From contig JADCRB010000114.1 in assembly GCA_021464245.1 (NCBI GenBank), positions 868,001 to 932,000 of the forward strand: a stretch of DNA of 64,000 bases, read 5' to 3'. Shown piece by piece: positions 1 to 50,129 of the stretch (position 1 is its first letter; each line of letters opens with the position of its first letter). The notes beneath the pieces were generated by a model. It was not told the origin of the DNA. It did no database searches and saw nothing but the letters and a program-made list of their open reading frames with translations. The position numbers and the translations under genes were made by a program. Origin of the DNA: Carallia brachiata. Its lineage: Eukaryota; Streptophyta; Magnoliopsida; Malpighiales; Rhizophoraceae.

Positions 1-341
1 TTTGGGGTTTACTCCTGAAATATCACTCAAAAAGGAGTTAGGAGAGTATATTGCAGAGTAAAAGTACGTAGGAAAAGGAGAAATTTTCTTAAGAGTTTTT
101 AAAATTTTTTTTTCTCTCAAATTCTCTAAATTTTTCTATTTACATATTTGCTGAATATGTTTTGAACTGAATGGCGGGGGCCTATTTATAGGGTTTCTTT
201 CTCGTGTGAAAATATGGTGGGAAAAGAATATATTTTTTGAAAAAAATTTTCAACGTCGGCGTTGCCAATTTTGAAATTGGCAATGCCGACAAAAGACTTG
301 ACTTTTTCTTTTTGCTTTTTTTTTTTTTTCATTTGTTTACA
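1..341 (-). repeat. Partial LTR of the same Tat-type Gypsy family as 34-44 kb
   Basis: This stretch aligns by eye with the U3 end of the LTRs at 34,154-34,927 and 43,582-44,351. It shares phrases such as GGAGTTAGGAGAGTAT, the TTTCTCTCAAATTCTCT block and the terminal TGTTTACA at 334-341. The rest of the LTR lies off the left edge. A minus-strand TATA box is visible at about 181-191, and a hairpin at 255-290 occupies the same place as the hairpin in the young LTRs. It is more diverged, so it is an older insertion. No internal retrotransposon sequence follows on the right, so it could be a solo LTR or a rearranged end. Confidence 0.85.
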
Positions 342-2802: not shown

Positions 2803-3246
2803 TTAATATATATATATATCTAAAAGTAATTATAAAAATGATAATTATAAATAATGATTAAATATTAATTTTTCTAATTTTAAGGACTAAATTGAAAAGT
2901 TTGATTAAATTTAAGACTAAATTAAAATTTTTAATTAAATTTAAAGATTAAATTATAATTTAAATGACATTTAGGGGGTGTTTGTTTAGGAAAAACGTAA
3001 TGTGAGAATGAGAATCAACTACTTAATTCTCATTCTTATTATTTATTTTATAAAAAATGCATTCTCATTATCTTAAAAAGCGAAACGAGATTCTTCATTT
3101 TAAAGGAATCATAATTCTTAAGTTTATTATATCAATCATTTTCATTCCCCTCCTAACTACCTCTAACTCTTTAAATTTCTCCACTTCCCCATGTCTTTAT
3201 TTTTATATTGTTATTATATTGCTTTTTTGATTTTATTTATTCATAA

Positions 3247-3283
<37 letters not shown>

Positions 3284-3285
3284 TA
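3247..3285. repeat. (AAT)n microsatellite
   Basis: Uninterrupted AAT trinucleotide repeat inside the Harbinger-like MITE. Confidence 0.9.
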
Positions 3286-3649
3286 TTTTTATATTATAAT
3301 AAAAATTAAATATTTCAAAACTTAAGATAAATAATTAAATTGTAAATACTAATATCATTTTATAGTTAGAATAATCATTTGTATATTATTAATAAATTAT
3401 TTTATAATATCTAAAATATTATTTTCATAATAATAATAATAATAAATATTATTTTTATTGCTATTGTTATTATTGTCATTACCATTACTATTTATTAATG
3501 ATAATATGTCATAGTATTATAACTAGCAAAAATTTAAATGTCAAAATATTTAAATTATAAATTAACAAATGATTATTATTATAATAACAATAAAATTTTA
3601 TGTTAAGATTTTCTTTTTGGATTTTATATTTATGGTTATCATTGTGAAG

Positions 3650-5125: not shown

Positions 5126-5327
5126 TGTGGAAACAACAAGGAAGAAGAAATTATTTGTATTATATATTTCTTTGATTAGTGTTACACACCTATATAAATA
5201 AGCTTTACACAACCCACGAGGTAGAGCTCAACCCACGGGATAGAGCCAAGCAAACAATTCAGTTACTAATTGATAAATAACATAACCAAAAGAGATGAAT
5301 ATGCAGCACCAAACTAATCTGATAACA
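5126..5327 (-). repeat. Copia element 1, 3' LTR
   Basis: Begins TGTGGAAACAACAA and ends CTGATAACA on the plus strand. It is closely similar to 9723-9958 but lacks a roughly 34-bp internal duplication present there. A TATA-like TTATTTATATAGG lies on the minus strand near 5191-5203. On the minus strand it is preceded by a polypurine tract (GCGGGGGGC, plus-strand positions about 5328-5337). Confidence 0.9.
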
Positions 5328-8300
5328 GCCCCCCGCAAGCCAATGGGCACTGCTGTTGGTGCAGACGTTGGCGAAGAAGAACAAACCGGGCAATGGCCAA
5401 TGGCTTGGTGAAGATATTAGCAACTTGATCATCATTAAAATTAAATCGAACGTCCAATTTGCCTTGTGTGACCTCATCACGAACAAAATGATAGTCAACC
5501 TCAATATGCTTGGTACGTGCATGAAAAATGGGATTAGTAGTAAGATAAATAGTCCCAATGTTGTCACACCATAACACTAGTTTGGGAGGTCGAAATCCAA
5601 GTTTTGATAACAGAGATTGGAGCCAAAAGAGTTCAGCTGTAGCATTAACAAGTGCCTTATATTCTCCTTCAGTTGACGACCTCGCAATGGTCAACTGCTT
5701 CCTGGAACTCCAGGAAATTAATGAGTTGCCTAGAAAAATGCCTTACCCCCAAGTGGAACGGCGATCATCAGGACAACCAGCCCAGTCACTATCGGTGTTA
5801 CAATGAAGAACCAAGTCAAAACGTCGAGAGAAAACTAATCCAAAATCGGTTGTGTCCTTTAAATATCGGAGAAGCCTCTTGACAGCAATCCAGTGAACAT
5901 CCCTTGGGTCATGCATAAACTAACATAATTTATTAACACAGAAATAGATATCTGGTCGCGTCATGGTCAGGTATTGAAGGGCACCAACAATTTGGCGGTA
6001 AAGATCGCCATTAGAGAAAGGAACACCATCTGTCTTAGATAACGATGGCTTAGTTGCCATGGGGGAAGAACACGGCTTGGCAGTCACCATAGCAGTCTTG
6101 TGAAGCAAATCACAGACATACCGGGACTGAGATAAGACAAGGCCCGACGAGTGGGTGGCCACCTCAATCCCAAGGAAATAATGTAAAGCCCCCATGTCCT
6201 TGACTGGAAACTCCTTCTGCAAGGCTTGTAATAGAGTTGTTAGGAGTACAGAAGAGCACCCAGTTAAGACAAGATCATCAACATAACATAGAAGCAACAT
6301 CCTGTCAGAACCATGTTGAAAAATAAAAAAAGAAGCATCAGCTTAGAGGCCACAAAACCATAAGAGAGAAGAAAAATGCTGAGACGATGAAACCAGGCCT
6401 GTGGAGCTTGCATGAGACCGTATAAAGATTTTTGTAGTTTGCAGACAAAGTGAGGCTTGGAAGCATCAACAAATCCTGGAGGTTGTGCTACCTAAATCTC
6501 CTCTGTGAGATTACCATGAAGGAAATTGTTTGATATATCCAACTGATGCATAGGCCACTGATGTTGGGTGGCCAGCGCAAGGACTAATCAGATTGTGGTG
6601 GCCTTGACGACCGAACTAAAAGTTTCAGTATAATCAACACAGGACTGCAAGGTGAAGCCTTGGGCAACAAGATGGGCCTTGTAGCGATCAACTGTCTCAT
6701 CGAACTTCTGCTTTATTCGATAAATCCACTTGGAGCCCACAATGTTCTTACCAGCTGGTCTAGGAACTAGAACCCATGTGTTATTAGCTTGGAGGGCCTA
6801 CATCTCGTCATCCTTAGCATTAGTCCATTCAGAATATTGATGGGCTTGTTTGAAAGTGGATGGTTCGATTTGAAGATAATTAATTGGGGATTGAGAAATG
6901 TGGGCTAAATGAGCCTGACGGAGGGCCAACATGGTGGGACGGAGAGTCATGGGATGGGTTCTAGTGATGATAGGTGTAGATGTTGGAGAGGATGGAGGAA
7001 GAGTAGTTGGATAAGAGGTAAGGTCGACCAGAAGATTAAGATCAGGTTTTTCAAACGTTGGGGCAGATGGTGTAGGGGAAGAGGTTGGGCATTGTGAATG
7101 AGAAAAATTGTGGTGAATCAAGGGTGGAGATAAGGGCAAGGATAAGTCTCATTGTGAAGTAGAGGAGGACGTTTGTTGAGAGAAGAGGGTACAGAAGTAG
7201 GAGATTGTGGTAGAATGGGTAAAGGAGATGGAAAAGGATGAGTTTGAGAGGGAGAAGAAGTGTGACCTGCGTGGGATCCTTGTGCAAATGGGAGGACGTG
7301 ATGTAGATGGAGCCATGGGCTTGGTGAGTTTGATTGGGGAGTGACCGGCTGCACGTTTGGAAAAGTTACATACGGAAAAGTGGTCTTATCAAAACGAGCA
7401 TGTCTAACAATATAGACGCAACCTGTATCAATATCTAAATAGGAGTACCCTTGGTGATTTACTGAATTACCCAGAAAAACACATTGTTTGCTTCGAAAGG
7501 ATACCTTGTGTGAATTGTACAGTCGAAGTAAAGGATATACAGCACAACAAAAAATGTTTAAATTGAAATAAGGAGGTTCTTTACAAAATAAAATACTATA
7601 GGGACTCTTTTTCTGAGTAGTTTTAATTCATAAGAGTAACACCGGTCGCAAAGGCATAAGACCAGAATTTAAAAGGAACATTAGCATGGGCAAGTAATGT
7701 GAGTCCAGTATCAATTATATGTCTTATTTTGCGTTCTGTTGTACCATTCTGCTCATGGGTATAAAAACATGCTATATGATGTTCAATACCAATTTGTTTG
7801 AAGAAATTGTGAAGCTTTTGATACTCACCCCCCAAAGTCTGATTGAAATGCTTTAATTTCAAGATTAAATTGACGTTCAACATAAGCTTGAAATTGAAGA
7901 AAAATGGAGAAAACTTCACTCTTATTCTTAAGAAAATAAATCCAATAGAAGCAGCTAAAATCATCGATAAAGATCACAAAATAATGAAAACCTCAAGAAG
8001 AGAGTGTTGGGCCGGCCCCCAAACATCAGAATGCACTAAATCAAATGGACCTTGACTCTTGTGAACAACAGGAGATAAATGAGAACGGGAGAGTTTCCCT
8101 AATTGATAAGCTTGACAAAAAAAGAACGTGAAGACAAAAGAGGGCAAATTATTTTTCTTGATGACTTGAGAGACCACTCGACCATGAGGATGTCTCAAAC
8201 GCGCATGCCAGTCAGGAAAACCAACTCGTTCGCCCAACAAGGCTTGCTTCAACATTTGAGGAAGAACATAAAGACCATTTGCACTAGGACCGCGTAGGAA

Positions 8301-8681
8301 GACTTCTTGGGTCTGTTGATCCTTAATTAAGAAATAAAAAGGCCAAAATTCAAAGTAACAGGAATTGTCAGTGGCAAATTTTTGAACCAATAATAAAGAT
8401 TTAGTGATTTTAGGAACAAGTAATATATCATGAAGTAAGAATTGACGACTAGGGGTTGAATAAACTAAACTACCAGTATGAGAGATAGGCAGGCCTTAAC
8501 CATTGCCAATACGAACATAATCAATTCCAGTATATTCAACAGCAGTGTTGAAATTAGAACTATCTGTAGTAATGTGACGCGAAGCACCAGTATCTGGGAA
8601 CCAAGGCAAACCAGAACCTCCATAAAATTGAGGCATTAACGATGCTGAGGGAGAGGTAGCCGATTGATATTGTTGTTGCAT
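5328..8681 (-). pseudogene. Copia element 1 pol remnants: protease, integrase, reverse transcriptase, RNase H
   Basis: Read 5' to 3' on the minus strand. A protease segment with DTGASRH is at about 8496-8681. The pre-integrase and integrase parts are at 7974-8390 and 7623-7964; the latter includes the HEQNGTTERK block around the catalytic Glu. A reverse transcriptase part at 5920-6300 contains YVDDL (about residues 6-10 of that open piece). The RNase H tail at 5314-5694 includes the STEGEYKAL and ADIFTK-like VANIFTKPL blocks. The pieces are in different frames and separated by stops, so no intact polyprotein can be made. Family assignment is firm from the motifs and their order. Confidence 0.9.
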
Positions 8682-8735
8682 AGGTAATGTCCAAGCAACG
8701 TTGGCTTGTGGAGCTTGTTGACGAGGTATATATCA

Positions 8736-9695
8736 TCAGCGACATCGATCTACAGTGTGGTTTCGATACCCACAAATTTGACATGGGCCACGATTTCGAT
8801 GATTTTGGTTGTTGGAGCGACCTGAAAAATTAACAGATGAATTAAGATTAGCTGGCCTTGGGGATAAAAGGGAAGTATTTTCTACTGAGATGCCTCGCCC
8901 TCCAGTAAATCCTAAAGCTGTTGGTCTTGAAGATAGAACAGCAAGGTGCGCTGTAGGGCCTTCATGAAGACTTTTGAGAAGATTCTCATGAGCTATAAGT
9001 TGGTTGTGCAGCTCGTGAAATGAAACAGGTTCAGGATGCAAATTCAGGGCTATGATAATAGCATGATAATCTGCACCAATATTGCGATAAATTATCGCAT
9101 TAAATTCAGCATCCGTAATTTTCCTTCCCGCTGCTGCCAATTCATCAGCCAATGCTTTTGCTCTTTGAATATATTGCGAGACAAAGAGGTCATTCTTTTT
9201 AAATTCCTGCAGCTCAATATTAAGTTGTAATTGACGATTCTGAGATACAGAACCGAATGCATTTGGTAATGCATTCCAAACTGAATAAGAGGATTCTAAC
9301 CCGATAACATATGGAAATACTTCTTCAGAAAGTGAAGATAAAAGCCATGATAATACCAGCTGATCCCTTTGAAACCATGTCATATACGCTGGATTTGGTA
9401 TAGTTGTTGGTGTACCTTCGGTGTGAGAGGAAGACACATCGGGATTAGGTATAGTTTTTGTTGGTACTGTAGTGGTCCCATCAATATATCCATTAAGTTG
9501 ATAGTAATTGAGAAGTGGTAAGAATTGAGTCTTCCAGCATAGATAGTTTCTGGAATTAAGCTTTACTGAAAATGTTCGATTAGCTGCTGTCGGGATTTGT
9601 GAGGTGCTGCTTATAACTTGTGCAATTGGAAAAGGTATTGGAGTATTTGATGTAGCTAAAGAGGAAGAGGAAAAAGAAGAAGAGGAAGATGTCAT
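8736..9695 (-). pseudogene. Copia element 1 gag, ending at a premature stop
   Basis: A 319-codon frame starts at the ATG at 9695, just inside the primer binding site. It begins with a Ser-rich stretch, continues through a Copia-type gag domain (FSVKLNSRNYLCWKTQ near the start, then LNIELQEFKK and FVSQYIQRAKALADEL) and reaches a CCHC zinc knuckle (CQICGYRNHTVDRC). A stop follows directly at 8733-8735. In related elements this frame continues into protease, so the stop is probably a lesion. The longer upstream open frame to 9809 lies in the LTR and is not coding. Confidence 0.85.
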
Positions 9696-9709
9696 AGATG
9701 GACTTTTAT

Positions 9710-9722
9710 GGCTTTGATACCA
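9710..9722 (-). other. Primer binding site of Copia element 1
   Basis: On the minus strand TGGTATCAAAGCC directly follows the 5' LTR terminus CA. The usual plant Copia site complementary to initiator Met-tRNA is TGGTATCAGAGC, so this carries one change. Confidence 0.85.
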
Positions 9723-9958
9723 TGTGGAAACAACAATGAAGAAGAAATTATTTGTATTATGTATTTCTTTGATCAGTGTTACACACCGATATAAATAAGC
9801 TTTACACAACCCACGGGATAGAGCTCAACCAACAGGATAGAGCCAAGCAAACAATTTAGTTACTAACTGATAAATAACATAACCAAAATAGATGAATATG
9901 CAGCACAAAATTAATCCCAAAAGAGATGAATATGCAGCACCAAACTAATTTGATAACA
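9723..9958 (-). repeat. Copia element 1, 5' LTR
   Basis: Matches 5126-5327, with a tandem duplication of about 34 bp around AGATGAATATGCAGCAC (about 9889-9950). The terminus pattern TG...CA is intact. Confidence 0.9.
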
Positions 9959-34148: not shown

Positions 34149-34153
34149 CTTTT

Positions 34154-34927
34154 TGTAAAGCGTAAATTTCGAAGTTAAAACAATTAAATTCGAAAATACA
34201 AAAATAAATTACAAATAAAAATTATAAAGTAAAAGAAAATTTACGTGGGGTCGATCTCCGTAGATCCTCCGATTAGTGTTCCTTTTTTGACTCCGTCAAG
34301 GGCTGAGCGAGCTTGATCTTGACAGAAATAATTCCACAGCTTTTTCTTGAACTGGGTAGACTGAAACTGGATCTGATTTGAACGTTTTCACTACGGTTAC
34401 GAACCGCAGAGAGCTGATCTGAGCCGATCTGACTTAATTTCACCGAGAGTCGAAGAGACTTGTTCTCGGATGAGCTGCCTGGATTTTGCTGAGGGCCGTA
34501 TGAGGCTTAATCCCAGCCGGATTTGTAGTAATTTGATATTTTTAATTCTATATTCTCAGAAATTCAGATCTAAAGCGATCCAAGAATATAAATTTAAAAA
34601 TAACTTTAGAAATGGAAACAGCAAATTTTTTGGGCCTTACCCCTGAAATATCTCTCAAAACGGAGTTAGGAGAGTATACTGCAGAGTAAAAGCACGTAAG
34701 AAAAGGAGAAATTTTCTTGAGAGATTTTCAAAATTTTCTTTTTCTCTCAAATTCTCTGAATTTTTCTGTTTACAGATTTGCTGAATGTCCCTTTGAACTG
34801 AGGCTGGAGGGCCTTTTTATAGGCCCTCCAGAGAGGACCTTACGCCACCAATCTTGAAATTCAAAGATTGGTGGCTGTCAATCTTCTTCTTTTTTTTTTT
34901 TTTTTTAATTTGAAAAGGATGTTTACA
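34154..34927 (-). repeat. Tat element 3' LTR
   Basis: Begins TGTAAAGCGTAAATTTCG and ends GGATGTTTACA on the plus strand. On the minus strand U3 is at the right end, with TATAAAAAGG (34,812-34,821) inside a palindrome (34,805-34,830). A second inverted repeat, GCCACCAATCTT/AAGATTGGTGGC, lies at 34,844-34,875. Confidence 0.95.
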
Positions 34928-34942
34928 AATGCCCCCACTTCA
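34928..34942 (-). other. Polypurine tract of the Tat element
   Basis: On the minus strand GAAGTGGGGGCATT immediately precedes the 3' LTR start TGTAAACATCC. AAGTGGGGGCA-type tracts are usual at this spot in Tat-like elements. Confidence 0.8.
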
Positions 34943-35290
34943 AGGGTCGGTAAGGAAAAAAATTTACAAAGATGATTCGAACCGAGTCTTGAAGTCCAGT
35001 TTGAAATTTGGAAACGTCTTGACGAACATTGAATCTTGGAGTCTTCTATCTTTGACTATGCCTGCTGTTGTTGGATCGCAATAGGAATCCGATACGATCT
35101 TGAGAAAGTTAGCACCCCAGCCAATATAGAAATTGAAGCCTTGGCTCCAGATGCATTCGAGCTTCCATAGCCCGCAAAGGATTTTTTATATCTCTTAAAG
35201 TTCCAGAGCTCTGGTGAGGGTGATCCGGTAGGTAAAGAACTTCAACATCCCCAAGAGAAAGGCTCAGGACCTTGGAACTTCAAGACCGGC

Positions 35291-35593
35291 TCACAGAGAG
35301 ACTGACTGTAGTGATGATTTCCAAGTCTGCTTCGATGTAAGGAGAGTAGTTGGAACTTCCCTGTACGTCGCTGCATCCAAAGAAAGATTAGGATAATTGC
35401 AGCTTCTCATCCCTCTGTGGTAGATGTGAACTAAGGAGAGTAGTTGGAACTCCATGACACCGAAGGCGTTGGAGACTGAGTTTCGAGGGCTTTTAGGGAT
35501 CCCTCGAAGAAGACTACTCCTTCTTTTCTTAGCTCGTGCGCCTCCAACTTCTTGATCGAAGAACTTCCTGAGACAAGTGCAGAGACTAGCCAT
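35291..35593 (-). CDS. Second accessory ORF of the Tat element (unknown function)
   Basis: A 100-codon frame that starts at ATG 35,593 (MASLCTCLRKFFDQE) and ends just upstream of the 3' UTR and LTR. Visible features are a Cys-containing N-terminus, a basic patch AKKRRSSLLRG at about residues 20-30, and no membrane segment. I do not recognise the family. A TATATATA box lies about 60 bp upstream on the minus strand, with a pyrimidine-rich leader ending AAAGAAA before the ATG. Tandem 22-bp repeats sit upstream of that. An internal 20-bp direct repeat (35,338-35,357 and 35,432-35,451) is in different frames. The open frame could extend 22 codons further upstream, but that part overlaps the TATA box. 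It may be captured host DNA or an element-specific gene. Confidence 0.45.
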   Translation of the reverse strand: MASLCTCLRKFFDQEVGGARAKKRRSSLLRGIPKSPRNSVSNAFGVMEFQLLSLVHIYHRGMRSCNYPNLSLDAATYREVPTTLLTSKQTWKSSLQSVSL

Positions 35594-35647
35594 TTTCTTT
35601 TGAGAAAGAAGAGCTGAGGGGTGAATATTACAACTCGGGCATGCAGG

Positions 35648-35657
35648 ATATATATAC
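35648..35657 (-). promoter_or_regulatory. TATA box upstream of the second accessory ORF
   Basis: GTATATATATCC on the minus strand, about 55-65 bp upstream of the ATG at 35,593. Confidence 0.5.
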
Positions 35658-35781
35658 AAATAATAAAGAGTTTTTTTTTTTTTTTTGAAAAGTCAAAAAA
35701 GGTATGCAGAATCGGGTAGGGTCATCCACGTCCATTTCCTGCATAAGAGACAAAAGAGGCAGCGGCTGACGCGTGTCACGA

Positions 35782-35872
35782 AAGTCGTTACCGTGTGTGG
35801 CAGAAGTCGTTGCCGTGTGCTGCGGAAGTCGTTGCCGCGTGCTGCAGAAGTCGTTGCAGAAGTCGTTGCACC
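35782..35872. repeat. 22-bp tandem repeats between the two accessory ORFs
   Basis: AAGTCGTTGCCGTGTGCTGCGG-like units start at 35,782, 35,804, 35,826 and 35,848 (22-bp period), with a shortened unit at 35,860. They begin about 20 bp beyond the WOX stop codon and end about 125 bp before the TATA box of the next ORF. This placement is typical of an enhancer-like array, but no transcription-factor site is proven. Confidence 0.85.
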
Positions 35873-35889
35873 TTATCTTGTCGGCCATC

Positions 35890-36513
35890 CTAGCGGGGCC
35901 CGAGGTGCAACTCCAAGTCAAGCTCGACCTCGTCTGGTGGGCCGATGATGTTGATGTCAACGTCGACGTCGCTTTCCGGCTGGTTGATGCTGCCGGAATA
36001 TTCTGGAAAGAGAGGCAACGTTTCGCCGGAATGACTCTTTTCTGCTAGAAAATGTCCTCCTAGACTTAAGTACCTAGGAGGGATGAACCCTTGGCTGACT
36101 CCGTAAGACCACCAGGACCAGCATGCATGCTCCCATGGGCTACGGCTTTGATTGTTATAGCCTGAAGAGACCATTGTAGTGGTAGAACTCGGACCTGCTT
36201 CATTTGACGGCGAAGTTGTACCAGTGGGATCTACCATCGGAACGGCAGACTGTTCTTTGGAAAAATCAGCTCTCAGTGCTGGTTTCTTCCTGCTTCTCCG
36301 ATTCTGGAACCAATAAAACACATTTTTTCCTTCGATTGCCCCGAGTGGGCGCAATCGTGAGACAAGTTGGTAAATCTGAGATGCATTAGGCATAATACCT
36401 CCATTGTTGTGGAAGACTTCCTCTAGAATTTGCAGTTGCGCCATGGTTGGTTGCCACCTTGTGCGGGGTGACCTTTCTTCTCCCTTGTCTTGAGGTTCTG
36501 CAACTGGTTCCAT
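35890..36513 (-). CDS. WUSCHEL-related homeobox (WOX) protein carried by the Tat element
   Basis: An intact intronless 207-codon frame. Residues 17-79 are a WOX-type homeodomain. It has RTRWQPTMAQLQILEEVF in helix 1 and the extended loops peculiar to WOX proteins. The recognition helix is IEGKNVFYWFQNRRSRKK (60-77), with the invariant W-F-Q-N. Residues 165-170 are TLPLFP, matching the WUS-box of the WUS clade. Residues 198-204 are LDLELHL, an EAR-type motif that recruits TOPLESS co-repressors. Family members are nuclear DNA-binding regulators that keep meristem stem cells undifferentiated. The IEGKNVFYWFQN block is WUS-clade-like, while NRRSR resembles the WOX9/WOX11 group. The frame lies between integrase and the 3' LTR, in the element's own orientation. 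A TATA box precedes it. Host WOX genes usually have introns, so a processed origin is likely. The family call is firm; that it is expressed is inference. Confidence 0.93.
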   Translation of the reverse strand: MEPVAEPQDKGEERSPRTRWQPTMAQLQILEEVFHNNGGIMPNASQIYQLVSRLRPLGAIEGKNVFYWFQNRRSRKKPALRADFSKEQSAVPMVDPTGTTSPSNEAGPSSTTTMVSSGYNNQSRSPWEHACWSWWSYGVSQGFIPPRYLSLGGHFLAEKSHSGETLPLFPEYSGSINQPESDVDVDINIIGPPDEVELDLELHLGPR

Positions 36514-36610
36514 CTTTCTTGTGGCAGAGGAGCAAAGGTCTGGTGTGTGGTGAAGATCGGTTGAGACTGATACTGAGTTTCAGACTCAAACCCTCCGTTG
36601 CTTTTATATT
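36514..36610 (-). promoter_or_regulatory. Candidate promoter and 5' leader of the WOX ORF
   Basis: The minus strand reads AATATAAAAG at 36,601-36,610. An A/C-rich leader of about 60-70 nt follows, reaching ATG 36,513 in the context AAGAAAGATGGAA. TATA-to-ATG spacing of about 92 bp fits a normal plant transcription unit. No other ATG lies between the TATA box and the start codon. Confidence 0.6.
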
Positions 36611-36619
36611 TTTGGGCCG

Positions 36620-36905
36620 TTCACAGTTTATACTCATGCGGGCCAGGAGTTGGATCGGATTTTGAACTTGGTTTCTGGACTGTGTTTGGAACTTGGAATT
36701 TTTTGGGTTTTGGGCTTTGAATTGAATTTGGGTTGATTTGGATTTGGGTTTTGGATTTAGATTTGGGTTGAGTGTTTGGGTTTTGGATTTGGATTTGGGT
36801 TTTTGGGTCGAGTGTTTGGGTTTGGACTTTCAGATCGGGACTTCCGAACTTTTTTTTTTTTTTCGATTTTTTTGATTTTTTTTTCTTTTTTTTTTTTTTT
36901 TCAAA
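36620..36905. repeat. Low-complexity GGATTTGGGTTTT minisatellite and poly(T) between integrase and WOX
   Basis: Variants of TTTGGATTTGGGTTTTGG and GGGTTGAGTGTTTGGG recur between about 36,690 and 36,840, followed by long T runs at 36,850-36,900. It separates the pol stop from the WOX promoter. The frames through it encode only low-complexity peptide and are not genes. Confidence 0.8.
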
Positions 36906-36910
36906 CATAT

Positions 36911-37999
36911 TTACACATAATATTGTTTCAGAAATTTACCATTGATTGGGCCGATTCGGACGCCTTCTTGGTCTGACAGCATGTAAGCGTTGTGAGTATA
37001 GGCCTCCTGCACTAGGTATGGCCCATCCCATTTGGAAGTAAGCTTGTCACCAGGCCGATGCTTCATGTTGATGGGCCGTCGCACTGCAAGAACAAGGTCT
37101 CCAACTTGAAAAGATCGAGGGCGGACCCTGCGGTTGAACGTGTTGGTGAGCCGGGCTTGGTAGCACTCAAGTTGTTGTTGTGCTTCAAGCCTCCTTTCAT
37201 CAAGGGCTTCTAACTCATCCAGACGTAGGCGAGCATTCTCCTCCTGTGTGAGTCCTTCCAGAACAGCCATGCGCAGGGATGGAATCTGTGTTTCCAACGG
37301 CAGTATTGCTTCGACACCGTAGACAAGTGAGTATGGCGTCGCCTGTGTTGGAGTCCGGTAAGTTGTACGATACGCCCATAATGCCTCCGGAATTCTGTCA
37401 TGCCAATCTCTTTTGGATTTAGAGACTACCTTCCGCAACAGGTTGCATAAGGTCTTGTTGAATGCTTCGGCCAAGCCATTTGCTGGGGCATTGTACATGG
37501 ATGACTTGTACTGCTTGAACTTGAACTTCTCGCAGAGCTTGTCGATTAAGCTGTTGTAAAACTGCTTACCATTATCAGTGATGATGAATCGAGGGACTCC
37601 ATAGCGATAGATCAGCTGAGTCCGGATGAAATTGGCAACATGCTCCTTCTTTACCTCTCTAAGTGGAATGGCTTCAGCCCATTTTGAGAAGTAGTCGGTT
37701 GCTGCAAGGATGTATAGGTGACCCAGGGATGACTTTGGCAAGGGCCCCACTAAGTCGAGACCCCAAGCTTCAAAGGGCCATGATGAGACAGTTGGATGCA
37801 GTGGCTCCGGTGGTTGATGTATGTAATTAGCATGAAATTGACAAGCTTGACAAGTTTTAGCAAACTCAATGGAATCACGTACCATTTGTTGGCCAGTAGT
37901 ATCCCATCCTTCTGAGTTGAAAGTGCAACTTAGGCCCCGATTGATGTCCGCCACAAACACCAGAATGTGCTTCAGTGAGAGCCTGTTTTGCCTCTTCAT
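36911..37999 (-). pseudogene. Tat element integrase (open frame, part of a broken pol)
   Basis: A 362-codon open stretch. Residues 50-53 (TCQACQ) end the zinc-binding region. The catalytic core has D82 (GLDLVGP), D142 (ITDNGKQF) and E178 (GLAEAFNKT), giving the D-D-35-E spacing. The C-terminal part has the GPYLV and LKQYYV blocks of Gypsy integrases. The enzyme inserts element cDNA into host DNA. The core looks intact, but its N-terminal HHCC half lies in another frame (37,875-38,366), so a lesion separates them. I classify it as part of a broken polyprotein. Confidence 0.9.
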
Positions 38000-38366
38000 T
38001 GGCTAGGCAGCGAAGTAGAACTCCATCAAAAGACCTTCGATACAGAGCATCCTTGAGATATATGAACCGGGGAGCTCGTCGTTGAATTTCTGTTTTATGA
38101 CGACGATCTTCGGGCAGCTTCCCATGCTGTAGATAGTCAATGATTGGTTGGCGCCAATCTTCGTCCTCCGCGAGACGTATAAATACAGCATTGGCTGCTG
38201 TAATTTCTTCATCATCCTTCTGTGGCACTATCCATTTCTGACATACGGCAACAACTGTAGCCTGGATTTCTGACTTTGCAAGAGAAGTGGCCAAGTTAGC
38301 CAACGCGTCTGCTTTGAGTGTTTTCTCGTCGAGGCACATGCTCCAAGGTGATGCTTTCAAATTCAT
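37875..38366 (-). pseudogene. Tat element pol: end of second RNase H and start of integrase
   Basis: The frame contains ADALANLATSLAKS, which ends the additional RNase H region. It also has the H-x-GVCGGHQS part of the integrase zinc-binding domain. It overlaps the pieces on either side in other frames, so frameshifts exist near 38,300 and near 37,950. Confidence 0.85.
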
Positions 38367-38826
38367 CCATTAGCTGTCGAGCACGTTGATGGTAAGGTGC
38401 AAGGTCCTCTTTCTTCACGTCATACAATCCTGTAAGTTGGTTGATGACGAGCTGGGAATCTCCATGGACTTCTATAGTTGGAATCTTCATATCGACAGCC
38501 ATTTGAAGACCAATGATCAAAGCCTGGTATTCAGCAACATTATTTGAACATAACTCACCGAGAATGATAGCATATGGTAGTATTTGTCGTTGAGGAGTGA
38601 CAAACACTATACTGGCACCAGCACCATCACGTCTTGCTGCACCATCAAAGAACATCGTCCATGGTGGTAGTGTCTCAATGTAAAAGACCTCTTCATCTGG
38701 AAGATCGTCTGTGAACTCCCAATCTGACGGAATAGGGTGATCTGCAAGGAAGTCTGCTAGAGCTTGTCCTTTGACTGCTTTTTGAGGCACGTAGACAATG
38801 TCGTAGCTTTGTAGGATTATGCCCAC
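38296..38826 (-). pseudogene. Tat element additional RNase H domain
   Basis: A 176-codon open stretch with MFFDGAARRDGAGASIV, NNVAEYQALIIGL and VHGDSQLVINQL. These are the catalytic D, E and D positions of an RNase H of the archaeal-like type seen in Tat elements downstream of RT. The frame is lost near the ADALANLA block. This second RNase H is the lineage marker. Confidence 0.88.
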
Positions 38827-39722
38827 TTGGCAAGTCGTCCTGACAAGATTGGTCTGGATAAGATATATTTGACAGGATCAGCTCTGGCAATGAGACGTAC
38901 CGTGTGAGCTTGCATGTAGTGCCTCAGCTTGTCAATGGCAAAGAACAGTGCTAGACATGTCTTTTCAATGGGCGAATAACTCAGCTCCGGACCGTTTAGT
39001 GTTCTGCTCAAGTAGTACAGGGCAACTTCCTTTCCCTGCTCGTTTTCCTGTGCAAGCAAGGCTCCCAAAGATCTTTCCTGCGCTGCAATGTAGAGAATCA
39101 ACGACTTTCCTTGAATTGGAGCACCTAGGACCGGTGGATTGGAAAGGTACTTCTTTATGCTCTCAAAGGCTTTGCTGCAAGCTTCGTCCCACTCGAAGTT
39201 GACATCCTTCTTCATCAACCGATGGAAAGGTTGACATCTCCCAGCTAAATTGGAGATGAAACGGCGAATGTAGGCCAGCTTTCCTTGTAGACTTCGCAGC
39301 TCGTGCAGGTTTTTAGGTTCAGGCATCTTTTGAATTGCCTCAACCTTTGACTGATCAACTTCGATTCCACGATGGCGCACCACGAACCCAAGAAACTTTC
39401 CTGATGTGACACCGAATGCGCACTTGAGAGGGTTCATTTTGAGCTGATGCCTCCGAAGTCTTTCGAACACTGTCTTGAGATCCTCGAGGTGGTCTTTGCG
39501 CTTCTTAGTCTTTACAACTAAGTCATCAACATAACATTCTACAATCTTGTGCAGCATGTCATCAAAAATTTTTTGCATAGCACGTTGATAAGTGGCGCCA
39601 GCATTTTTCAATCCAAACGGCATAACTTTGTAGCAGTATATACCTTTTGGGGTGCGGAATGCTGTCAACTCCTCGTCTTCTGGTGCCATTCTGATTTGGT
39701 TATAGCCTGAAGAACCATCCAT
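38817..39722 (-). pseudogene. Tat element reverse transcriptase and connection/RNase H
   Basis: A 301-codon open stretch. It has MDGSSGYNQI, the FRTPKGIYCYKVMPFGLKNA fingers-palm block and the catalytic YVDD at residues 64-67. The Gypsy RNase H-like region follows (LILYIAAQERSLGALL, YSPIEKTCLALFFAIDKLRHY). The N-terminal part of RT (KNGQLRVCVDFRDLNKACPKDDFPLP) is in another frame at 39,665-40,039, so a frameshift lies near 39,720. Confidence 0.93.
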
Positions 39723-40739
39723 GAAGACAATGCTTCGTGACCCGTTGTTGCATCGACTGTGATCTCCGTTATGGGCAATGGAAAGTCATCTTTCGGGCAG
39801 GCCTTGTTAAGATCTCGAAAATCAACACATACCCTCAACTGTCCATTCTTCTTTCTTACGGGACAATGTTGGCAATCCACGTTGGGTAGGTGACCTCTCG
39901 GATGAAGCCGGCATTGATCAGCTTGTTCACCTCCTCCTCGATTTGTGGAATGAGTTCCGGGCGGAACCGTCGTTGTGGCTGCTTGACAGAACGGACACCC
40001 TTCTTTACTGCTAGACGATGCACCGCAATTTTGGGTCAAGTCCAGGCATTTCTTTGTAACTCCATGCGAACACGTCCCTGTATTGACTTAATACCTGAAC
40101 ATATTCTTGCTCTTCTTCTGCAGTAAGTAAAGCACTTACAAATGTAGGTCGAGGATCTTCCGGAGAGCCAAGATTGACCTCCTTGAGTTCATCAACAGTT
40201 GCTTGGCCACCATCTTCAAGTTCCGGGGGAGCCTCCTTCACTTCACCATCTGATGAGTCGGACTCAGCCTCCTCGCTAATTGTGACATGAAATGTGAGCC
40301 TCTGACTTCACCTTCTTTGTTTGACTGGATAAGCCTGTCTTGTTGGTGGTGGTGGTGATGCACGTGCATCAGCTGCTCGGCTTCGGCTCTTTAGCGTGAT
40401 CCGCACAGGTGACTTCTCCTGATAGCCTAAGCCAGGTCGGGACTGTGATGTTTGAGAAGCGGCGCCATGTGTGGACGGCAGCGTACCCATTGTGCTCGGG
40501 TTTGAAAGTCATAGCCCGCCTTTGCCAAAAGCTTGTATGCATTAGGATCAAATCCTTCATGTGTTCTTCTTTCTGGAAGTGAGCCGCCTTCGACTGCCCC
40601 CGTGTGTGGTTTGACGAAGCCTTTTAATGGTTTTGAAGACAAAACCGGCTCAATCTTTGGTATCGGCAGAGTGTAAGTCTCCTTCAGGTTGTGCAGCTCC
40701 TTTGTTTTGGGTTGGCTATGACCTTGCTCCTGTTTAAGA
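39665..40739 (-). pseudogene. Tat element pol linker and RT N-terminus (frame-broken)
   Basis: Fragments in alternating frames. GFDPNAYKLLAKAGYDF is encoded in the 40,427-41,017 frame. EEEQEYVQVLSQYRDVFAWSYKEMPG lies at 40,011-40,241. The RT motif RVCVDFRDLNKACPKDDFPLP falls within 39,665-40,039. Each is typical of Tat pol between protease and RT, and the frame changes show accumulated indels. Confidence 0.8.
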
Positions 40740-42554
40740 TCAATACAATAAGAGAAAGGGGGTTGACCTTCTGAGCGTCGTGACTTGGCACATAGCGTAG
40801 GACTGGAGTGGAGCTTGAAGATGCAACATCCTTCGGACGAGTTCAGCAGGCTGTGGCAGCTTTTCATTTTTGGAGCCTGGGTTGGCATTGGCAGGTTCTT
40901 CGACAGCTTTTCCCTTTTTGTGGATGCCCCCAGTCCAAGTAGCTTTTGACGGAATGATCTCCGGATTGTCTGTGTCAGTGTAGAAGACTGCATCCGCCAA
41001 ATGTGATTCAGCATCATCGAACGGCTTTAAGTCAGCATTGACCTTTTGAACGCCACCATTGTAGTACTTGAAACACTGATGCAGGCTTGAGAGCACAACT
41101 CCATTTCCATGAATCCACGGTCGTCCTAGCAACATCTTATATGTGGTACGTGCATCAATCACGTGAAATAGAGTGCTAGAAGTGAGATTACCGATAGATA
41201 GCTCCAAGCGAATCATCCCAATTGCTTTTTGTCCTCCTTGATTAAAGCCATGAATCATCAGACGGCTGTCTGATAACTCATCAACACCGATGCCGAGCTC
41301 CTTTATGGTGGATTTTGGGATAATATTGACTGCTGAGCCATCGTCGATCAGAATACGTCGGACTTTCTGCTCTTTCACATAGCCTGATACATACAGCGGC
41401 CGATTGTGGGGTTTGGACCCCAGCAGGAGATCCTCATCTGAAAATGAGATAGCAGAATAACATCCGACGTGATTTTGATCCGCCTGATGTTCCTTCGAGC
41501 TGGAATTGCTTGATGGCAGAGGTTCAGCTGAGGTCTGAAGAGTATTGCCGACTTGATTTTGCCACACTTCTGTTGTTTGCAAAGCGGTAAACAGCTGAGG
41601 GTTAGCGAGAAGGGTTTGGAGAGCTTCATATACCTTCTCTGTTGTCGACTTTTTGTTGTCGAGCGGCTCCTCCTTATGGTGTGTCACCTCTTCTGATGGT
41701 TTTGCAGTGATGGTGGTCTGGTTTGCAGAAGTTATGCCTTCCTGGTCCAGAATGATTTTATTCTGGCTTTTGAGCTTCATGATTAGCTCCTTCAGGACGA
41801 AACACTTCTCAGTTGGATGACTTACTATCCGGTGATATTTGCAGAATCTTGGATCGCTGACTCGATCCTTTTCATTCGGCCGCTTGCACTCTGGGAGTTC
41901 GATCAGCTTCGCCTGCAAGAGTTGGTCAAGGATGTCGGGAACGTCTGAGTCGGGGAATGGATACTGCTTCTGCTCCAACTCTCGCAATGTCACCTTCCGC
42001 CTTTCCTGTTGTTTTGGCTGAGTTATTTGGGTCGGAGGATTTACCTTAGCTTTGGCGCCCACTTTTACTGGTGCGGCTTCAACAGTCATCACTTCTTTTC
42101 CTTTTCCGAAACTGTTGGGTTTCTTAGTCTCCCTTCTGCCCCCTTGCTGGTCCAACTGGATGGGAACCATGCCTCCAGAGGTCTGGATGCTTATCTCCAT
42201 ATCATGTGCGCGGGTCGCCAATTCTTCGAAAGTTCGGGGTTTAACACCCTGCAGGATGTATAACAGCTCCCAATGCATTCCCTGGATGCACATCTCCACG
42301 GCAGAAGTCTCCGTCAGGCGATCTTTGCAGTCCAAGCTGAGGGCACGCCATCTGTTGATGTATTCGACAACGGGCTCTCCTTTCCTTTGTTTGGTGCTAG
42401 TAAGCTCCATCATACTTACCGTCCTTCGAGTGCTGAAAAATCTGTTAAGGAACTCTCGTTGTAGCTGTTCCCAACTGTCAATCGATTCTGGTTCAAGATT
42501 TATGAACCAGGTGAAAGCGGTCTCCCTGAGTGAACGAACAAACTGTTTCACCAA
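40740..42554 (-). pseudogene. Tat element gag (C-terminal part) and protease
   Basis: A 604-codon open stretch. The first 100 residues form a retrotransposon gag domain (WEQLQREFLNRFF, EPVVEYINRWRALSLDC). A DPRFCKYHR...HPTEKCF zinc-knuckle-like block follows. The aspartic protease core ILIDDGSAVNIIP lies near residue 403. It is open over a long distance but disconnected from the gag N-terminus by a one-base frameshift near 42,665 in a run of G/C. The 3' end runs out of frame near 40,860. Confidence 0.9.
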
Positions 42555-42588
42555 GAGATCTCCGTAAGTCCCTGCGTTGTTGCAGGTT

Positions 42589-43392
42589 TCAACGAAGTGG
42601 GCGATGTGCTGTTTGGGATCGCCTCGTCCGTCGAATTGTTGAAATTTGGGCGGCTGGTAGCCCAGGGGGCATGTTGAGACTTTCGATCCGTCTGGTGTAC
42701 GGTTTGACGTACATCTGTGATCCTTGGAAGGATGTAGCTTGTTGCAGTCGGATCGTATTGGCTATCATTTCCTGCAATTGTTGAACAGATAGCGAAGCTA
42801 CAGAATTTGAGGGTGGCAGCTGTGTAGAACTACCTGGTCGCTTTTCTGCAGTGAAGACGTCGGCTGGTGTGGCTTCGGGAGTGAAACCGGGTGGATATGG
42901 TTGCTCCTCGCGGGTCTCAGGATCAACTTGGATCGGGGCTTTTCCTTTGAGAGCTGCGATCTGTTGATCTTTTTCCTCGACAACTCTGATCAGCTGCAAA
43001 ATTTTGTTCTCCAATTCTGAAATCCTTTCCTCTGTGCTGGTTGTGTTGGTCATCATGACGGCAACAGATGAGGCTCCGGGAAAGACTGGGGGAGAAAACT
43101 CTTCTGATTCTTCTGTGTGAGTCGGATTTTGTTGAGCAGGCTTCGTCGTGTTGCCCCCGATTTCGATCGGGGTGGGTGATCGACTCCTCCATGCGGCAAC
43201 AGAGTCAGGGGAGAGATCCTGTTGTGCAAGCTGTGGACTCTCCATTTCGACATTTTGTCGGGTTTGGACGGCAAGAAATTGTGTCCGTCCCCGGGTTTCT
43301 GGACCTGCGTACCCATGTAGGGTAGTTGATGCAGGCAATGGAGCCGTTGCCTTCTTTTTTGTGGCAGCAGTTGTACTCCTTTTCGGTGCCAT
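42589..43392 (-). pseudogene. Tat element gag N-terminal part
   Basis: It begins at ATG 43,392 (MAPKRSTTAATKKK), about 190 bp inside the 5' LTR. It includes a coiled-coil-like segment (ISELENKILQLIRVVEEKDQQIAALKG) near residues 123-150. It loses frame near 42,665 at a five-base G run, after which gag continues in the frame ending at 40,740. Confidence 0.85.
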
Positions 43393-43559
43393 TTGATGTG
43401 CTGAACACCTGAAAATTTTTTTTTTTTTTTTTTACCCTTTTTTTTTTACTTTTTTACTTTTTTACTTTTTTTTACTTTTTTTTTTACTTTTTTTTTTCTC
43501 TCAGCTCCCCTTTTACCTCTTTTTTTTTTTTAGGAACAAGAGATGGGAGGTGAAGTTGT

Positions 43560-43581
43560 CCCACCGAGTGTGCCAAAAATT
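43560..43581 (-). other. Candidate primer binding region of the Tat element
   Basis: On the minus strand, AATTTTTGGCACACTCGGTG follows the 5' LTR terminus. The TTTGGCAC...GGTGGGAC pattern is in the place of a primer binding site. I could not match it to a specific tRNA 3' end. Confidence 0.5.
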
Positions 43582-44351
43582 TGTAAAGCGTAAATTTCGA
43601 GCCTAAAACAATTAAACTCAAAAATACAAAAATAAATTACAAATAAAAATTGTAAAGTAAAAGAAAATTTACGTGGGGTCGATCTCCGTAAATCCTCCGA
43701 TTAGTGTTCCTTTTTTGACTCCGTCAAGGGCTGAGCGAGCTTGATCTTGACAGAAATAATTCCATAGCTTTTTCTTGAACTGGGTAGACTGAAACTGGAT
43801 CTGATTTGAACGTTTTCACTACAGTTACGAACCGCAGAAAGCTGATCTGAGCCGATCTGACTTAATTTCACCGAGAGTCGAAGAGACTTGTTCTCGGATG
43901 AGCTGCCTGGATTTTGCTGAGGGCCGTATGAGGCTTAATCCCAGCCGGATTTGTAGTAATTTGATATTTTTAATTTTATATTCTCAGAAATTCAGATCTA
44001 GAGCGATCCAAGAATATAAATTTAAAAATAACTTTAGAAATGGAAACAGCAAATTTTTTGGGCCTTACCCCTGAAATATCTCTCAAAACGGAGTTAGGAG
44101 AGTATACTGCAGAGTAAAAGCACGTAAGAAAAGGAGAAATTTTCTTGAGAGATTTTCAAAATTTTCTTTTTCTCTCAAATTCTCTGAATTTTTCTGTTTA
44201 CAGATTTGCTGAATGTCCCTTTGAACTGAGGCTGGAGGGCCTTTTTATAGGCCCTCCAGAGAGGACCTTACGCCACCAATCTTGAAATTCAAGATTGGTG
44301 GCTGCCAATCTTCTTTTTTTTTTTTTTTTTAATTTGAAAAGGATGTTTACA
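43582..44351 (-). repeat. Tat element 5' LTR
   Basis: 770 bp, about 98% identical by eye to 34,154-34,927. U3 is at the right end, with TATAAAAAGG within the palindrome near 44,228-44,254, and the hairpin GCCACCAATCTT/AAGATTGGTGGC follows near 44,270. Promoter activity here would drive gag-pol on the minus strand. Confidence 0.95.
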
Positions 44352-44356
44352 CTTTT

Positions 44357-47810: not shown

Positions 47811-50129
47811 ATGATGAGGCCCCAGAGGACATTGAATACTAGTACAGCCCTAGAAGGTGTGCATGGGATACATGTTTTGCCTCATTCTTCATTTGATTTA
47901 GAAGAGATTGCTCAACACAGGGAATTGCCTCAATCAACGTGTGAAAGTTCTATTACTCAAGCAAATCAGTGGCTAATAGTGCAGTAAGTGTTCTCCCTAT
48001 CAGTTAATATATTTTTGCCAAATAAATCCCCATGCGATATTCAAGTACAAATGTAAAATTTGTTACTTACTTCACAGCTCAAGCTCTCCATCTATTTAAT
48101 CTACATGCCCGTTAAAACTCAATTTGATAATGTAACAACAATATAACTGTCATTTTTTATCTTTATCAGAAGAGTGTGGCAGCAACGCCCAGAATGTTTG
48201 AGGCCCATCCGGAGTTGTATTAGTGGTACGTTGAAGAGGCTCGGGGTTTTCTCTTTTGCCTTCATAAATACTCTTTAATGTACTTTTGATATGCCGTGCG
48301 GTTGTACTTTCACTAGGTGATCAGACCATAGCAGAAAGAGTGGCTAATGTCCTTACCTCCCTTCCTTTTATTGGACTAGGAATCCAGGCTCCAAGGTTAA
48401 TTGGCTTGACTTTTTGTTTTGCTAGTGATACACTACGTTTTTTCCCAAGATATATATGTCTAATAACTTGCGGTACTTCATGCAGGAAGAACCTGAACAC
48501 GAAGTTGTATGCCAACTCATTAATTGGAGTTGGAGTTGCCTCAAGCCTGTACCATGCATCACAAGGAAAATTGAAAAAGTATTTGCGGTGGTTTGACTAC
48601 ACAATGATAGCCGCAGCAACAGTTGTAAGTCATTTCAATTTTCAACTAACTTCTAACCTTTTGCTAATATAATATATATCTGTACATGGGTATTGCCATG
48701 CAAAATTTGACAATGAATGACTAGAACAATCTTACTGAGACTATTTCCACATTGTCAACTTTGCCCACGAACTTACCTAATCTTTTTTTGTGTGTTGGTT
48801 GGGATGGGGGGGTCTAGTTGAACCCTTTTCTATATACTGTCACTTCTAAAAAGTATATAAAACAATGGTTCAATTTTAATCAATTATCTTGTATTTGATT
48901 GCATTCTTCTTTGTTTTGTATTTGATTTTCTTGTCTGCATATTAGGCCAACTATCCAAGTTGGTTCTCATTAGTTAATCTTTTCTCGTTCCCTTTTTTTT
49001 CAAATGATGCTGATTCTGTTTAACTCTGGGCTCGTAACTTCTGTTTCCATTTTCTTACTCCAAAATTGCAATTCTGTGAAGCTCCACCTCAGTCCGATAA
49101 CAGCCTCATATCTTAACTTTTGTTTTCATAGTTTTTCTCTTATCCACACTACCTTGTATTCTCATGTACATGTGGAATTGCTATCTGAACTAATATCAGC
49201 TTTTATCTCTGGAAGCTTTTCAGAATATGGAAAAATGTCATACTGGCAACTGATCTTTAGCGTAGATTATTTCTGAATATAACGGACACTGCATCATTAA
49301 ATATGGGTTCTAAGTCAATATAGATAAAGAAAGTGACATTGGAATTGGATTTGGTATTATGCTTATTTATGTTATTCATTTATTTAGCTCCTTGCTGATA
49401 AATAAGCAAAACGACCTCTGTAAATGATAATTAAGGCTTTTCAGATTCTTAGATAGCAAAAGTTAACTGAAGAACCTCTCTGCAGTGTTTGTCAAGGGCT
49501 CTTAGAAGCGAGAACCCAAAGTTGCTTATGGCCGCATCCGCACTTTTATTGCCCATCCAGCCTCTGATGGTATCGGCGGTTCACGCAGGGATGATGGAGG
49601 TGATTGCCTTGTCGTTGGGCCCTCACCTATTGAGTTACCTGAAATCACTTTGCTTTTCTTTCTTTTTTTCTATTTAAGTTCTGTCAGAAACATTCCTGTC
49701 CGAAGGGAAACATTCAGAAGGGGACTGTTGAACTCATCCAGTATTGAAACGTTCATATACTTGGAATGAAAGACATTCCTCTTCCCATTTTTGTTTTGCT
49801 GTGAACTATTAGAACATCGTGTTTCTGTACCCAATGTGGTCCATCTACCAAATATTGATAAAACATAAATTAATCCTGGATGAGCTGAAACAATCGGGTT
49901 GATTACGCTATTAACTAACGTTGATTCTACGTTGTAGGTGGCATTTGCAAAAAGAGCATTAAAAGATCCGGAGCTAAGAATGGCACATAATGTTCATAAG
50001 ATGTCATCATTGCTGGGAGGTGTTCTTTTTGTTGCAGATGATTTCTTCCCCAGTACCCCTTTCCTTCATGCTGGTTGGCATCTTGCCGCAGCTGTTGGTG
50101 TTGGCACCTGTAACAAGCTTCTTGAGTAA
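47811..50129 (+). CDS. CREST-superfamily (ceramidase-like) multi-pass membrane protein, six coding exons
   Basis: Exons 47,811-47,983, 48,170-48,225, 48,317-48,395, 48,486-48,624, 49,486-49,599 and 49,938-50,129 join in frame across GT-AG introns to encode 250 residues. The CREST signature is visible: S122-x3-H126 (SSLYH), D140 (LRWFDY) and H231-x3-H235 (HAGWH). In alkaline ceramidases and adiponectin-receptor-like proteins these residues bind a catalytic zinc. Hydrophobic segments at about 111-125, 141-152, 160-176, 205-217 and 229-245 fit a multi-pass protein. The soluble N-terminus of about 80 residues could be a targeting region. An in-frame stop at 47,751-47,753 supports ATG 47,811. A 5' UTR exon probably ends near 46,530 (AACAAG before GTAAAA). 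Substrate unknown; I do not recognise a named orthologue. Confidence 0.85.

Follow-up and report, generated by a model that had tools for sequence, protein, structure and literature searches.

A diverged WUSCHEL-type homeobox gene with a conserved homeodomain is carried by a Tat-type Ty3/gypsy retrotransposon family in Carallia brachiata

The analysed stretch of Carallia brachiata DNA, 64,000 nucleotides long and called the window below, contains an LTR retrotransposon that carries an ORF for a WUSCHEL-type homeobox (WOX) protein (Table 1). LTRs, gag, a weak protease match, reverse transcriptase, RNase H and integrase occur in the order of Ty3/gypsy elements, together with a 5-bp target-site duplication. 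This CTTTT duplication is perfect on both sides (AAAAG when read on the minus strand). The 5' and 3' LTRs are 97.8% identical (774 alignment columns, 13 of them mismatched, plus 2 gap openings), which corresponds to an insertion age of about 0.65 million years, a soft figure that assumes the rice rate of 1.3e-8. A second RNase H (PF13456) lies between the first RNase H and integrase, and this domain is a marker of Tat elements. The sequence-only reading had reported near-identical LTRs, a perfect CTTTT duplication and Tat affinity; the first two were recovered with both CTTTT copies located, and the third agrees with the second RNase H. The purine-rich GAAGTGGGGGCATT, presumably the polypurine tract, precedes the LTR in all five copies compared, and TGGCACACTCGGTGGGA presumably serves as the primer-binding site.

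Table 1. Features of the WOX-carrying element and of its surroundings in the window (positions on the forward strand)
Feature	Position	Strand	Remarks
Piece of related LTR	1-192		87% over 197 columns, at the left edge of the window
Copia-type remains	5317-9824	minus	several frames (gag, GAG-pre-integrase and RVT_2 matches)
Target-site duplication CTTTT, left	34149-34153	.	
WOX-carrying element, whole	34154-44351	minus	between the CTTTT copies; minus strand throughout, WOX in the same sense as pol
3' LTR, 774 nt	34154-34927	minus	TGTAAAC...TTTACA
Purine-rich GAAGTGGGGGCATT	34928-34941	minus	adjoins the 3' LTR
Second ORF below WOX, 122 codons	35291-35659	minus	without Pfam match
WOX ORF, 207 codons	35890-36513	minus	between integrase and 3' LTR
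EAR-like LDLELHLG, residues 198-205	35899-35922	minus	
WUS-box ETLPLFP, residues 164-170	36004-36024	minus	
Homeodomain, residues 17-80	36274-36465	minus	
Conserved block (presumed promoter and 5' leader)	36514-36652	minus	-139 to -1; TATAAAAG at about -95
Spacer, A/T-rich, integrase to conserved block	36653-36910	minus	differs between two upstream types
Integrase ORF (rve)	36911-37999	minus	Pfam
Pol frame between second RNase H and integrase core	37875-38366	minus	without Pfam match
Second RNase H (PF13456)	38296-38826	minus	E 4.5e-21
Reverse transcriptase and first RNase H	38817-39722	minus	Pfam
Gag and weak aspartic protease match	40740-42554	minus	protease below its curated cut-off
N-terminal gag frame	42589-43392	minus	without Pfam match
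TGGCACACTCGGTGGGA, primer-binding-site-like	43559-43575	minus	
5' LTR, 770 nt	43582-44351	minus	
Target-site duplication CTTTT, right	44352-44356	.	
Exon-like frame, perhaps of a host gene	48268-48669	plus	weak HlyIII match (E 0.0011, below curated cut-off)

The gag-pol of the window copy looks interrupted because it is spread over several overlapping frames; the WOX ORF is open meanwhile. Elsewhere in the host genome integrase is found in open frames above 900 aa. The carrier element is widespread, since a protein search found integrase relatives up to 87% identical in many eudicots. The region between pol and the 3' LTR measures approximately 2.0 kb in the window element, and about 960 bp of sequence follow the WOX ORF before the LTR begins. 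On the opposite strand, the stretch from integrase to the LTR has two ORFs of 80 aa or more, neither with a Pfam match. An antisense TRP28 gene in the place of WOX was considered and ruled out, as no TRP28 was found in the region between pol and 3' LTR.

The WOX ORF matches the Pfam Homeodomain (E 2.3e-12), and the only PDB sequences at E up to 0.001 were WUSCHEL (3.2e-18) and STENOFOLIA (7.7e-16), in agreement with the earlier description of an intact 207-codon WOX ORF between integrase and 3' LTR. The predicted protein, hereafter retro-WOX, has the features of the WUS clade: a WOX-type homeodomain, a WUS-box and a C-terminal EAR-like motif (name as in PMC7203112). In an alignment of 24 proteins (6 retro copies and 18 WUS proteins) the TLPLFP of the WUS-box is invariant, as are L198 and L200 of the EAR-like end. 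AlphaFold2 predicted a confident three-helix domain, with block means of 90-93 over residues 21-70, and disorder outside the homeodomain (whole-protein mean 58). All eleven Foldseek matches at E up to 0.001 were WUS-HD or STENOFOLIA, and the fold matches 6ryd.

Over the matched part, the retro-WOX homeodomain is 49-55% identical to the WUS and STENOFOLIA homeodomains, and about half of its positions are changed relative to WUS. The equivalents of WUS R38, W39, N90 and R94 (numbering of PMC7203112, as in its excerpts) were kept, likewise those of I66 and F85. The place of S36 is taken by R and that of F101 by A. In WUS, according to the same excerpts, R38, N90 and R94 read bases and W39 anchors, R94 gave the TGAA preference, the S36R change improved TAAT binding, and F101 is a dimer contact (PMC7203112). 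Because S36R has this effect in WUS and R94 is kept, a broadened choice of sites is predicted for retro-WOX. Its targets may also differ from those of WUS, since half of the homeodomain including F101 has changed.

When retro-WOX was searched against the protein database, ordinary WUS orthologs came first (top E 7e-18, at 42% across half of the query), and nothing closer was found among the best 120 of 421 matches (476 candidates). The host itself possesses two WUS genes, one on contig C90 (L069; three exons, read by eye) and one on C65 (L070, of which the first exon was read). Its other WOX homeodomains number at least seven. The C90 gene most resembles a pair of Erythroxylum novogranatense proteins (64 and 66%), followed by Ricinus (63%). 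Both host WUS genes and the two close Erythroxylum novogranatense WUS read NTG where most aligned WUS read NNG. That retro-WOX was recently copied from a host WUS gene was rejected: both host genes differ from it as other WUS do. In a tree with midpoint root, retro-WOX was monophyletic (100/100) and its branch very long, at several changes per site; within the host genome its homeodomain is nearly invariant. Judged by these comparisons, retro-WOX is a highly diverged lineage. A WUS transcript is its likely source because it has the WUS-type extra residue: the homeodomain part compared has 65 residues in 5/5 retro copies and in 16/16 WUS rows, and 64 residues in all seven rows of other host WOX. 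The WOX ORF is intronless and lacks the exon-intron structure of the host gene, in contrast to the three exons of C90, which suggests uptake of a WUS transcript by an ancestral element.

The host genome (337.5 Mb in 164 contigs) contains many further copies. A 44-bp stretch from helix 3 of the homeodomain was found at 621 genomic places with up to 3 mismatches, its reversed control at none, and in the genome search all 150 scored places (of 2327 candidates) reached E 1.8e-115 or better. A one-off capture is ruled out by these two results. At least 220 WOX places on 89 contigs were listed, 19 of them recognised by the upstream block alone. Sixty-eight copies were fetched, 8 cut by the search and 60 out of 92 picked from the ranked list; they come from the top 150 by score among no fewer than 621 places, a choice that favours low dN. 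The ORF is open from ATG to stop in 55/68 of them (201-212 codons), and the remaining 13 have lost the start or have an early stop. A second WOX match in L068 was considered as a diverged subfamily; this was rejected, since the match belongs to the same family and has a broken reading frame.

Since the WOX ORF recurs genome-wide with a window-type LTR downstream in 60/68 fetched copies, chance can be excluded. The flank beyond the 3' LTR was readable in 48 copies and was distinct in 45; three pairs of copies with a common flank may be haplotypes or duplications. The L063 flank continues into the internal start of another element. Thirteen fetched copies carry an identical ORF at twelve distinct flanks, and therefore a recent burst is indicated. 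The sequence-only reading had proposed that WOX moved as cargo of a young element and had suggested looking for it in other copies with the same LTRs. The 621 places, the 45 distinct flanks and the 60 copies with the window LTR bear the cargo reading out, and "young" is a fair word for an element with such similar LTRs and so many identical ORFs. At least 34 of the 113 integrase loci that were scored have WOX within 2.5 kb downstream; by the fuller pattern list, at least 18 of the 33 loci on contigs C1-C70 have it within 3.5 kb. Some relatives of the carrier element may lack WOX.

Selection was analysed in 41 distinct open WOX ORFs. Singleton variants (90 nonsynonymous, N, to 35 synonymous, S) are near the neutral expectation of 2.57:1, and variants common to several copies number 41 N to 33 S over the whole ORF (p 0.0017). 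Shared variants are 2 N to 10 S in the homeodomain (p 1e-4), 27 N to 14 S in the linker (p 0.24) and 10 N to 9 S in the C-terminus (p 0.06). In pairs at dS > 0.1, dN/dS is 0.06, 0.57 and 0.36 in these three parts, respectively. Pairwise dN/dS drops with growing dS across the 41 ORFs, a trend that is partly a binning effect (it was seen in one neutral replicate), so the case rests on the shared-variant counts, the ORF downstream of WOX and simulations. That downstream ORF, open in 36/68 copies by the filter applied and with 25 distinct sequences, is neutral (shared variants 80 N to 31 S, p 0.54). Because best-scoring copies favour low dN, neutral families were simulated with the same picking as the real copies (15 runs on each of five tree shapes; the analysis used the 50 runs, out of 75, that gave at least 8 distinct open ORFs). 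The homeodomain dN/dS over all pairs is 0.11, against a simulated minimum of 0.34, and its pooled shared N:S is 0.2, against 1.7-3.0. The whole-ORF dN/dS of 0.44 equals the lowest neutral simulation (0.44). For comparison, uninterrupted integrase stretches (9 of 56 loci with a match) gave dN/dS of 0.05-0.07 at dS > 0.02; they were used in place of a codon table from mixed frames (33/41 copies), which inflated dN.

Purifying selection on the homeodomain therefore stands. What this test shows concerns the homeodomain; the whole-ORF dN/dS, with linker, WUS-box and EAR motif included, can be reached by neutral drift and picking. The earlier reading had named a one-off capture with neutral decay of the homeodomain as the outcome that would leave WOX without a function for the element, and the data went the other way, with WOX in hundreds of copies and a homeodomain conserved by both the 2:10 count and the simulations. 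It is highly improbable that retro-WOX is passive cargo, in other words a WUS pseudogene that was captured, is carried along by the element and is open owing to recent amplification. A burst with 13 identical ORFs would look open anyway, but the simulations yielded at most 53/68 open copies and 55/68 were observed. Neutral drift with picking can reach the whole-ORF dN/dS, and the linker and C-terminus are without clear constraint; the homeodomain values nevertheless lie beyond all neutral simulations, and the neighbouring ORF downstream is neutral. Contact residues, fold and WUS-box have moreover survived about 50% homeodomain divergence from WUS.

Upstream of WOX, conservation extends beyond the coding sequence. 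Among the 63 copies having the ATG, to which the block statistics refer, every one has a TATAAA in the 180 bp before the ATG, and in 61 the distance is 93-97 bp. Conservation in 15-column means is 0.95-1.00 from about -140 to the ATG, compared with 0.71-0.85 at -260 to -141. Comparison of 307 deep pairs gives a divergence of 0.02-0.07 within the block and of 0.28-0.48 from -490 to -131, a stretch in which many pairs set unrelated spacers against each other. Codon positions 1, 2 and 3 diverge by 0.060, 0.033 and 0.074 in the same pairs. The block is thus conserved about like codon positions 1 and 2, which again speaks against passive cargo. Transcription probably starts from this block, judging by its TATA box and conservation. 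Three TGAA/TTCA sites recur in it in at least 62 of the 63 copies, and the block could therefore be a target of retro-WOX itself. Such a self-regulator, which would bind the LTR, the block or a 44-bp array of its own element and set element transcription, a role that one might also guess for other nuclear accessory proteins of Tat elements, is an unlikely reading overall.

A second upstream type, found in 12/68 copies, leads into the same block, with the junction at about -139. Nine of the 68 copies have no integrase match at E 1e-5 within 1.5 kb upstream. A gag piece lies upstream of WOX in 7 of the 12 second-type copies, the ones read further up, and in 3 of these 7 the gag start lies about 30 bp or less from a scrap of the integrase end; pol is therefore gone. 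WOX is open in 8 of the 12, one of which (L023) has an altered C-terminus, and within these 8 open copies the homeodomain dN/dS is 0.08, a value without neutral simulation. One copy, L056, is complete: it has LTRs on both sides (7 mismatches and 5 gap openings in 979 columns), CACAT on both flanks and a length of about 5.05 kb. Upstream of WOX, no ATG-started sense ORF exceeds a 91-codon remnant; downstream, only the last part of the neutral ORF was seen, and WOX is the sole substantial ORF seen. In L023, positions 913-1386, which precede the WOX block, hold about 10.7 tandem 44-bp units, each with GAGTATAAAA; the array contains a TATA box, and the WOX block itself resembles one further unit. 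The placing of this array before the block would suit a self-regulator.

Over the 57 copies in which the U3 was delimited, the U3 sequences fall into five clusters (25, 14, 10, 7 and 1) that are not linked by blastn, and all five carry the same WOX cassette. The U3s are unrelated between subfamilies and frequently contain short tandem repeats (for example L019, positions 3169-3323). The WOX unit stays while the U3, and in some copies also gag-pol, is exchanged or lost. The WUS-type gene seen by the sequence-only reading can be described more exactly as a minus-strand, highly diverged gene that is preceded by a TATA block and is also found in pol-less elements. TGAA, TAAT, TGAATGAA and TCACGTGA were not enriched over shuffles in the U3s of one member from each of the five clusters. 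The element's own U3 is less probable as a target, given that it was replaced beneath a nearly constant WOX. Unrelated U3s without enriched WUS-type sites count against the self-regulator, even though a prediction of DNA binding exists for the antisense accessory proteins of Retand elements (PMC11963269). LTR self-regulation through the TTGAA-TTCAA palindrome of the window U3 was rejected: the palindrome was found in only 13/68 copies, and WUS sites are not enriched in the five U3s compared with shuffles.

Some other accessory role outside the regulation of host development genes, such as nuclear entry, chromatin targeting of insertions or the blocking of host silencing or antiviral defence, is quite improbable. 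It would agree with a homeodomain that is conserved yet differs from WUS at half its positions, and nuclear or RNA-related accessory proteins are known from other Ty3/gypsy elements (parts of PMC9289625 and PMC7264820). WUSCHEL takes part in keeping RNA viruses out of stem cells, and an altered WUS could interfere with this exclusion (excerpts of PMC10589665). Against such a role, the WUS-box and EAR-like motif, which are repression motifs in WUS, were kept.

The best explanation, to which we give about an even chance, is that a Tat-type family uses a WUS-like repressor on host genes; the conserved homeodomain, the block-preceded cassette and the hundreds of copies point to it. Host targets are suggested because the U3, the natural site of self-regulation, turns over without enrichment of WUS sites. 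An ancestral element would have captured a WUS transcript and kept it as an intronless WOX ORF, and retro-WOX would be made from its own promoter, the conserved block. The protein is predicted, from its sequence and the published WUS structure, to bind DNA via the homeodomain, and would recruit a TOPLESS-type co-repressor through its WUS-box and EAR motif. Host expression altered in this way would keep cells in a state, for example dividing or meristem-like, that permits the element to be transcribed and inherited.

A bolder version is possible but doubtful: an element with a rewired WUSCHEL and a private promoter would repress host genes and keep cells stem-cell-like, insertions would reach the germline, and the cassette would be portable, even as the sole gene of pol-less elements. 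Plants do not separate a germline early in development, and their germ cells descend from shoot stem cells (PMC7560203). The meristem or germline hypothesis would fit WUS biology (PMC10589665 and PMC7560203), and the LONELY GUY-type domain of a Citrus Ty3/gypsy element would fit it as well (PMC9289625, in part). An element that conserves its version of a stem-cell regulator would offer a direct handle on the ways in which a plant retrotransposon might select, or influence, the cell type where it transposes. Retro-WOX makes this question testable through its DNA targets, its expression domain and its effect on regeneration. If the bolder version is true, pol-less carriers are transposons of a developmental regulator and little else. 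For genome annotation the family is a warning: hundreds of WUS-like ORFs in one genome can be non-host genes.

Among the matches listed in a search of the open-licence literature there was no published case of a plant retrotransposon carrying a WUS or homeobox gene. The main text of a domain screen of 121 angiosperm genomes contains no homeobox, WUS or WOX, and nothing relevant was found for homeobox in the literature on Retand, aORF and sunflower elements, or in the viral contigs searched. Accessory ORFs in this position are themselves familiar. Tat, Retand and Grande elements, which are non-chromovirus Ty3/gypsy, likewise have an extra ORF between pol and 3' LTR, and some are likewise defective for gag or pol domains (parts of PMC11963269 and PMC7264820). 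According to the excerpts of PMC11963269, their ORFs are mostly antisense and mostly TRP28, whereas here the ORF is sense and WUS-type and TRP28 was not found. The sense ORFs there were without a known domain, in contrast to the homeobox here, and the region spans 2.9-6.6 kb compared with about 2.0 kb (PMC11963269).

Host-type regulatory proteins are also known as additional ORFs. An orchid Ty3/gypsy element carries an AlkB RNA demethylase, an enzyme active on RNA in vitro, while the gene described here is for a transcription factor and is known from sequence alone (PMC9289625, in part). Regulator domains inside LTR elements likewise include the LONELY GUY-type (YgdH) domain in Citrus Ty3/gypsy and B3 in Aegilops tauschii; in section 12 of PMC9289625 these domains are listed without a selection test, promoter or pol-less carriers, unlike here. 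With plant WUSCHEL, retro-WOX has in common the extra homeodomain residue, the WUS-box, the EAR-like end and the fold of WUS-HD 6ryd. It differs in having half of the homeodomain changed, in being intronless and 207 aa long, and in its 621 matches and its location inside LTR elements. Accessory ORFs and the uptake of host-type genes by Ty3/gypsy elements are thus already known, and a WUS-type cargo is unusual.
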